Shown one piece after another: positions 2,150 to 38,379 of a stretch of DNA of 64,000 nucleotides. Where the stretch lies: contig JAJZRG010000006.1 of the NCBI GenBank assembly GCA_021802825.1, forward strand, positions 1 to 64,000, in the 5' to 3' direction. A model generated the notes under the pieces. The model was not told the DNA's origin. It worked only from the letters and a program-made list of their open reading frames with translations, and did no database searches. Source of the stretch: Chloroflexota bacterium. GTDB taxonomy: Bacteria > Chloroflexota > Limnocylindria > Limnocylindrales > CSP1-4. The position numbers were made by a program, and so were the translations under genes. Each line of letters opens with the position of its first letter. The first letter of the stretch is position 1.

Positions 2150-2176
2150 CGCGGGTCCCGACCGCCGGAGCCACTC

Positions 2177-2219
2177 TTGTCGTTGACATCCAAAGTAGCA
2201 TCTAGGATGTGAACGACAA
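2177..2219. promoter_or_regulatory. Inverted-repeat operator and promoter of the abiE operon
   Basis: Two 15-bp arms, TTGTCGTTGACATCC (2177-2191) and GGATGTGAACGACAA (2205-2219), match as reverse complements at 14 of 15 positions around a 13-nt spacer. The left arm contains a perfect TTGACA (2183-2188). The spacer holds TAGCAT (2196-2201), seven bases before the GTG start, and the right arm covers the start codon. AbiEi antitoxins are known to repress their own operon by binding inverted repeats, so this is the expected autoregulatory site. Which hexamers RNA polymerase uses is uncertain. Confidence 0.8.
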
Positions 2220-5018: not shown

Positions 5019-5429
5019 TCAGGCGTCCGGCGCGATGAGCTCGAGGCGCGGGAAGTACGTGCGGTAGCGCGCGGCGTCGCGCGTGAGGAGCCGATAGCCG
5101 GCGATGGCCGCGTGCGCACCAACGAAGAAGTCCGGCAGGACGCCTGTCCGCGCGCCGCCCCGGCGGCGGTACTCCAGGTAGCACCGAGCGGCGAGGAACG
5201 CTGCGGGGTACGGGACCTCCTCGCGTCGGATCCAGGCCTGCGGCAGTGCCGCCTCGAGTGCCTCGACGCTCGGATAGCCGACCGCGAGCTCTGCATAGAC
5301 CACCGGGTTGATGAGAAGCGTCGCCTCCTCGGCCGCAGCCTGCAGCCGGCTCGCCGACCACGCCCGCCAGGGACCGTCGGGACCCAGAACGTCGATGAGG
5401 ACGTTGCTGTCGACGAGGACCGAGCTCAC
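5019..5429 (-). CDS. vapC: VapC-like PIN-domain ribonuclease toxin
   Basis: A 136-residue PIN-domain protein. The four acidic residues expected in the active site are visible: D7 in VDSNVLID, E47 in NPVVYAEL, D100 in LPDFFVGAHA and D118 in TRDAARY. VapC toxins are metal-dependent RNases that cleave tRNA or rRNA, normally held inactive by VapB. The GTG start overlaps the vapB stop (GTGA), so the antitoxin is made first from the same transcript. All catalytic positions are intact, so the toxin looks functional. Confidence 0.9.
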   Translation of the reverse strand: MSSVLVDSNVLIDVLGPDGPWRAWSASRLQAAAEEATLLINPVVYAELAVGYPSVEALEAALPQAWIRREEVPYPAAFLAARCYLEYRRRGGARTGVLPDFFVGAHAAIAGYRLLTRDAARYRTYFPRLELIAPDA

Positions 5430-38229: not shown

Positions 38230-38245
38230 ATGCCCGACGCGGTGA

Positions 38246-38290
38246 GCGCGCCCCCCGGCCGTGACCGCGGTCATCGGCCGGGGGGCGCGC
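38246..38290. terminator. 45-nt near-perfect palindrome, bidirectional terminator candidate
   Basis: Left arm GCGCGCCCCCCGGCCG (38246-38261) and right arm CGGCCGGGGGGCGCGC (38275-38290) are perfect 16-bp complements. The centre TGACCGCGGTCA (38262-38273) is itself a perfect 12-bp palindrome. It lies between convergent genes (VOC and tyrS), the usual place for a shared terminator. No T-tract follows on either strand, so it could also act at the RNA 3' end or as a protein site. Confidence 0.6.
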
Positions 38291-38306
38291 GGCCCACAGC
38301 ACAACT

Positions 38307-38379
38307 TGAGTCTGGCGCGACTCGCGGGGTCGGTGTGCGGACGGAGTGAGTCTGGCGCGACTCGCGGGGTCGGTGTGCG
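38307..38379. repeat. 33-bp direct repeat containing GAGTC-N6-GACTC copies 3 and 4
   Basis: The 33 bases at 38307-38339 recur exactly at 38347-38379 (period 40). Each begins with TGAGTC-TGGCGC-GACTCG. Only 7 bp separate the copies. Confidence 0.85.

Follow-up and report, generated by a model that had tools for sequence, protein, structure and literature searches.

The start of an abiE operon in a Chloroflexota draft genome raises the question of what is served by an inverted repeat that spans the promoter region and runs on into the first codons of the antitoxin gene. The window, by which we mean the whole 64,000-nucleotide stretch analyzed here, is where contig C35 begins in a draft genome of 3.9 Mb, and the closest named relatives are Chloroflexi MAGs. 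An earlier note, made from the sequence alone, had assigned the two genes to the AbiE family and proposed the repeat as the binding site of AbiEi. The family assignment is borne out by profile matches above the cut-offs, with PF13338 (AbiEi_4) matching the first product with an E value of 3.8e-9 (36.9 bits, cut-off 25) and PF08843 (AbiEii / DUF1814) matching the second with an E value of 1.2e-24 (88 bits, cut-off 22.5). The AbiEi family profile also matches a solved AbiEi structure, 6y8q, with an E value of 1.4e-5. The antitoxin gene comes first and overlaps the toxin gene by 4 nt (ATGA, 2820-2823), and an overlap of the RTGA type is found in many orthologues; the regular expression used for toxin motifs overlooked some AbiEii copies that are plainly present in translation, and in MAG contigs some of the toxin frames downstream are interrupted or truncated. 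Directly upstream of abiE lies an MmeI-like restriction-modification gene with methyltransferase, target-recognition and C-terminal domains (16-2022), truncated by the contig start, and a PIN-domain gene is found at 5019-5429 on the minus strand. As judged from their sequences, the MmeI-like gene, abiE and the PIN-domain gene are a small defence cluster. The features of the locus are collected in the table.

Features of the abiE locus, with positions counted from the first nucleotide of the window
Feature	Position	Strand	Basis
tRNA-Asn 3'-end copy, CCGCCGGAGCCA plus CT, left edge of the abiE cassette	2162..2175	+	homology of relatives begins here
Left half-site of the predicted operator, core TGTCGTT 2178-2184	2177..2191	+	inverted repeat 14/15; conserved in orthologues
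TTGACA, proposed earlier as -35, rejected	2183..2188	+	7 nt from TAGCAT; confined to close relatives
Probable -10, TAGCAT (TANNNT class), at the center of the dyad, in the spacer	2196..2201	+	TANNNT-N7-start in orthologues; genome enrichment
Right half-site, core AACGACA 2212-2218, over the start codon and codons 2-4	2205..2219	+	inverted repeat; conserved; correlated with the left half-site
GTG start codon and probable leaderless transcription start	2209..2211	+	same dyad-relative in-frame start in 18 orthologues; transcription start inferred
abiEi, antitoxin and predicted autorepressor, winged helix-turn-helix, 204 aa	2209..2823	+	PF13338
abiEii, nucleotidyltransferase toxin (predicted), 295 aa	2820..3707	+	PF08843

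The two arms of the dyad, TTGTCGTTGACATCC (2177-2191) and GGATGTGAACGACAA (2205-2219), are 15 nt each and are separated by a spacer of 13 bp. Direct comparison of the arms confirmed two of the original observations, namely that they are complementary at 14 of 15 positions and that the right arm contains the GTG start codon (2209-2211); the sole mismatch, at position 8, falls opposite the G of this codon. The dyad is real and beyond chance, the whole 64 kb containing just two with arms matched at 14 or more of 15 positions and a gap of up to 30 nt, the other being a GC-rich hairpin at about 38,246. That hairpin (38245-38292), the only other dyad of such quality in the window, has arms matched at 15/15 (GCGCGCCCCCCGGCC / GGCCGGGGGGCGCGC), and adjoining it are two exact copies of GAGTCTGGCGCGACTC, 40 bp apart (38308-38363) and inside a longer repeated unit, for which the chance expectation as an exact repeat is 0.18. 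In the genome as a whole (3.9 Mb), the spaced core TGTCGT...ACGACA has two occurrences, one in the window and one on another contig, against one for a reversed control pattern. A search of the same genome for further operator copies that would make up a regulon thus revealed no core excess over the control and no hint that the element is repeated; half-sites taken singly, with as many as three mismatches, were too frequent to inform it.

The promoter anatomy differs from that first proposed. The arms had been said to embed both a TTGACA -35 and the -10; TTGACA does lie within the left arm, but the probable -10, TAGCAT, occupies the spacer, its first base 13 nt before the GTG. As a promoter element TTGACA is unsuitable, being only 7 nt from TAGCAT and 14 nt from an alternative TAGGAT, and it is limited (as TTGAC) to L014-L017 and L024, all of them close relatives. 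In the distant orthologues L104, L108, L110 and L119, a TTGNNN does stand at 17-nt spacing, adjoining the left half-site on its outer side. The window abiEi carries the signal of the leaderless TANNNT class as defined previously (PMC3160421), that is, TANNNT with its first T some 12 bp ahead of the start codon and no usable Shine-Dalgarno sequence, and a TANNNT 7 nt ahead of the start codon is found in 22 of 27 orthologues. Regions totaling 400 kb were drawn from the genome of the window for examination, and in this genome TANNNT at 6-7 nt from starts is enriched (11 of 299 ORFs versus about 1.7 expected). Leaderless genes make up about 4.7% in Chloroflexi genomes where they were detected in silico (PMC3160421), and 32 of 37 toxin-antitoxin gene pairs with a primary start in Mycobacterium tuberculosis are leaderless (PMC3898074). 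Given the enriched spacing and these published frequencies, a leaderless abiEi mRNA, as the earlier note had supposed, is likely.

We compared the region across orthologues drawn from within the family and from further families in the phylum, anchoring the upstream sequences on an in-frame start codon with TANNNT 7 nt before it, so that the dyad itself was not used. Of the 27 sequences, 22 could be anchored, and in 18 of these TGTC, or a close variant of it, lies 18 nt ahead of TANNNT and codon 3 is GAC, giving a common layout of TGTCNNN-N11-TANNNT-N7-start codon-NNNGACA that is 41 bp long with the -10 at its center. The half-site triplets vary among genomes and are often matched within one genome, the pairs being GTT/AAC in the window, ATT/AAT in L107, AGA/TCT in L109, ACG/CGT in L112 and ATG/CAT in L113. 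Among 13 less redundant orthologues, pairing at positions 5-7 reached 26/39 against 15.5 ± 3.6 when partners were re-dealt (p ~0.003), and over positions 1-14 it reached 119/182 against 99.6 ± 5.1, with 0 of 20,000 permutations as high; such permutations leave relatedness in, and 6 of the 13 sequences are of the GTT type. The half-sites therefore tend to vary together, as had been suggested for a genuine operator. The outer 7 bp are matched at only 3-5 of 7 positions in L019, L104, L108, L110, L111 and L119, and homologous operons lacking the dyad, which would speak against an operator, are few among the orthologues compared, namely L013/L023, a single orthologue whose AbiEi N terminus looks abnormal, and the distant L118. 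Asp at codon 3 is encoded by GAC in all 18 cases, versus 175 of 236 among all Asp codons in those genes. In L112 and L113 the matched 41-bp dyad is kept (CACG/CGTG in L112; arms of 25 bp in L113) with the start codon further downstream, which argues that selection acts on the DNA and not on an M-N-D-T peptide.

The left edge of the cassette lies just outside the dyad. The sequence CCGCCGGAGCCACT (2162-2175) is made up of the tRNA-Asn 3' end and two further bases and is identical to the tRNA-Asn(GTT) 3' end and flank in G017 and G100. Compared with two relatives (93% and 85%), the window abiE is homologous from a point at, or no more than 10 nt away from, this sequence to one just past abiEii. 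In G017, tRNA-Asn is followed directly by an abiE operon and then by a second partial tRNA copy and another abiE operon in tandem, and in G100 abiE is likewise directly behind tRNA-Asn; the operons so placed in relatives belong to two subgroups. The tRNA-Asn of the window genome is located elsewhere, with a 3' flank common to other genomes, whereas this flank differs in most genomes compared. Several genomes carry a second, partial copy of tRNA-Asn on the contig that holds the first. From the loci inspected (window 2162-2175, L009 1929-4000, L080, L034 and L126), the tRNA-Asn 3' end has the look of a hotspot at which defence cassettes integrate. A search of the window genome for an array of cassettes bearing the tRNA-end repeat found one exact copy only, and no integrase was recognized by eye among the ORFs upstream of the related G079 cassettes. 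At three places, L126 (G001:C98), G079:C28 and C54, the tRNA-Asn 3'-end copy is preceded by ATTCAGTACACGGCC-GCTCC-G or a near match, a stretch that is possibly the end of an integrative element.

A dyad over a start codon might also act in RNA. In transcripts reading through from upstream, the arms could pair and hide the start codon, leaving only the mRNA from the abiE promoter itself to be translated; RNA spanning 2170-2240 has a folding energy of -24.8 kcal/mol (z = -3.7), and some abiE copies immediately follow a tRNA gene, from which transcription could read through. We consider this quite unlikely as the main function, as the left arm would be missing from a leaderless mRNA, G-U accounts for 13 of 41 mismatched pairs (27% expected), which is no clear wobble enrichment, and pairing is among the poorest at the positions opposite the start codon (position 8 in 2/18, position 10 in 8/18). 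It is unlikely, too, that the dyad is dual, serving as AbiEi operator in DNA while in read-through RNA it traps the start codon and silences the mobile cassette except from its own leaderless promoter. Were this so, the read-through would arrive from the tRNA gene or a neighbor beside the landing site of the cassette.

That a different regulator binds the dyad is an improbable alternative. Such dyads are bound by many winged-helix regulators, and AbiEi binding here is a prediction; nevertheless, the dyad geometry is tied to abiEi throughout the phylum, the core is in no excess elsewhere in the genome, and AbiEi subgroups with differing recognition helices carry differing dyads. A second subgroup in the same bacterial family (e.g. 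L028, L031 and L033-L036) has a compact dyad of the type AATGTTACG-n5-CGTAACATT. A second, distant AbiEi of the window genome (L037, G000:C62:4350-4847) and its relatives (L028-L038) have a compact dyad of this type with the arrangement TTGNCC-N17-TAACAT-N6-ATG, which is likely to be another leaderless operator design. In a third subgroup (L105, L117), the -10 lies within the right arm of the dyad, and the recognition helix is different. The idea that the right arm is kept for an M-N-D-T protein start and that the match of the left arm is accidental draws on the overlap of the right arm with codons 2-4 and on common descent among close relatives, but it is highly improbable given that the left arm is conserved despite being non-coding and is correlated with its right counterpart, that L112 and L113 retain the dyad without coding M-x-D there, and that AbiEi residue 2 varies (N, S, T, R, G).

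Taken together, these data favor, with a probability of roughly 0.8, the reading of the dyad as the autoregulatory operator of an AbiE type IV toxin-antitoxin operon, in which AbiEi half-sites flank a central -10 and the transcript is leaderless. In such a system AbiEii would be toxic, and AbiEi would neutralize it with no complex formed between them. The arrangement expected of an AbiEi operator, facing repeats over the abiE promoter, is present at this locus. The original proposal of an AbiE operator accordingly stands as regards the genes, the position expected of an operator, its retention in relatives and the tendency of the half-sites to co-vary, and fails as regards promoter anatomy. 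We infer that AbiEi binds, two molecules to a site, that it represses the operon, and where transcription begins. Each arm would provide one half-site, TGTCGTTnAnnTCC, for one AbiEi molecule, and the two half-sites would face each other across the -10 at the center of the dyad. The transcript most likely starts at or next to the GTG, in which case the right half-site would cover about +4 to +10 of the mRNA together with codons 2-4; it lies inside the ORF, as there would be no leader. At high AbiEi levels, two molecules would occupy the half-sites and bar RNA polymerase from the -10 and start-site region, exclusion of the polymerase being, by homology with AbiEi of Streptococcus agalactiae and as also in M. 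tuberculosis AbiE, the most likely mode of repression, and less antitoxin and less toxin would be made. Once AbiEi drops, the operon would be transcribed as a leaderless bicistronic mRNA.

This arrangement resembles the abiE operon of S. agalactiae, where AbiEi binds TGTTGCTTTTA-N27-TAAAAGCAACA over the promoter and represses it (PMC3985639), with positive cooperativity and DNA bending (PMC7319586). There too, two facing repeats span the abiEi-abiEii promoter, the genes overlap by 4 nt, the outer repeat ends begin with TGT, the -10 is near the center, and the right repeat passes the transcription start (at our locus, the predicted one). The S. agalactiae site differs in being 49 bp wide (11-bp perfect arms separated by N27, extending to 23-bp arms) as opposed to 41-43 bp, in having its -35, TTGCTT, inside the left repeat, unlike the window site, and in the start of transcription 26 bp before the ATG with a ribosome-binding site, so that the right repeat is in the leader and not over the start codon. 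The description of the present operator as long thus did not hold, the S. agalactiae site being longer (PMC3985639). In M. tuberculosis rv2827c-rv2826c (PMC7319586), the AbiEi-family repressor Rv2827c likewise has facing repeats 13 bp apart, and the start-proximal repeat pair straddles the promoter. That system, however, has two pairs of 23-bp repeats, forming four sites with negative cooperativity, against one pair here, and its repeats lie upstream of the start codon (-1 to -131), whereas the window pair reaches into the ORF. These published AbiEi sites are 49 or 59 bp wide, compared with 41-43 bp here. As in our locus, the -10 lies inside the operator in leaderless M. tuberculosis toxin-antitoxin operons with a TANNNT -10, leaderless mRNA being the prevailing form among the toxin-antitoxin gene pairs (PMC3898074, PMC9477884), although the operator described as an example, that of MazE6 (18 bp), is of type II and belongs to another antitoxin family. 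Counting against the operator reading, the AbiEi-like Rv1044 of M. tuberculosis fails to bind its own promoter (PMC7319586).

The site is conserved across the phylum and is a known design in variant form, and the promoter anatomy given in the first reading has been revised. As an operator it would extend AbiEi autoregulation to the Chloroflexota, a phylum for which we found no published AbiE operator study. The rule TGTCNNN-N27-NNNGACA, centered on the -10, can be applied in predicting AbiEi specificity and locating start codons, and the natural matched half-site variants allow a direct test of how AbiEi recognizes its sites. With the right half-site situated within the reading frame, the evolution of the operator and that of the antitoxin N terminus would be mutually constrained.
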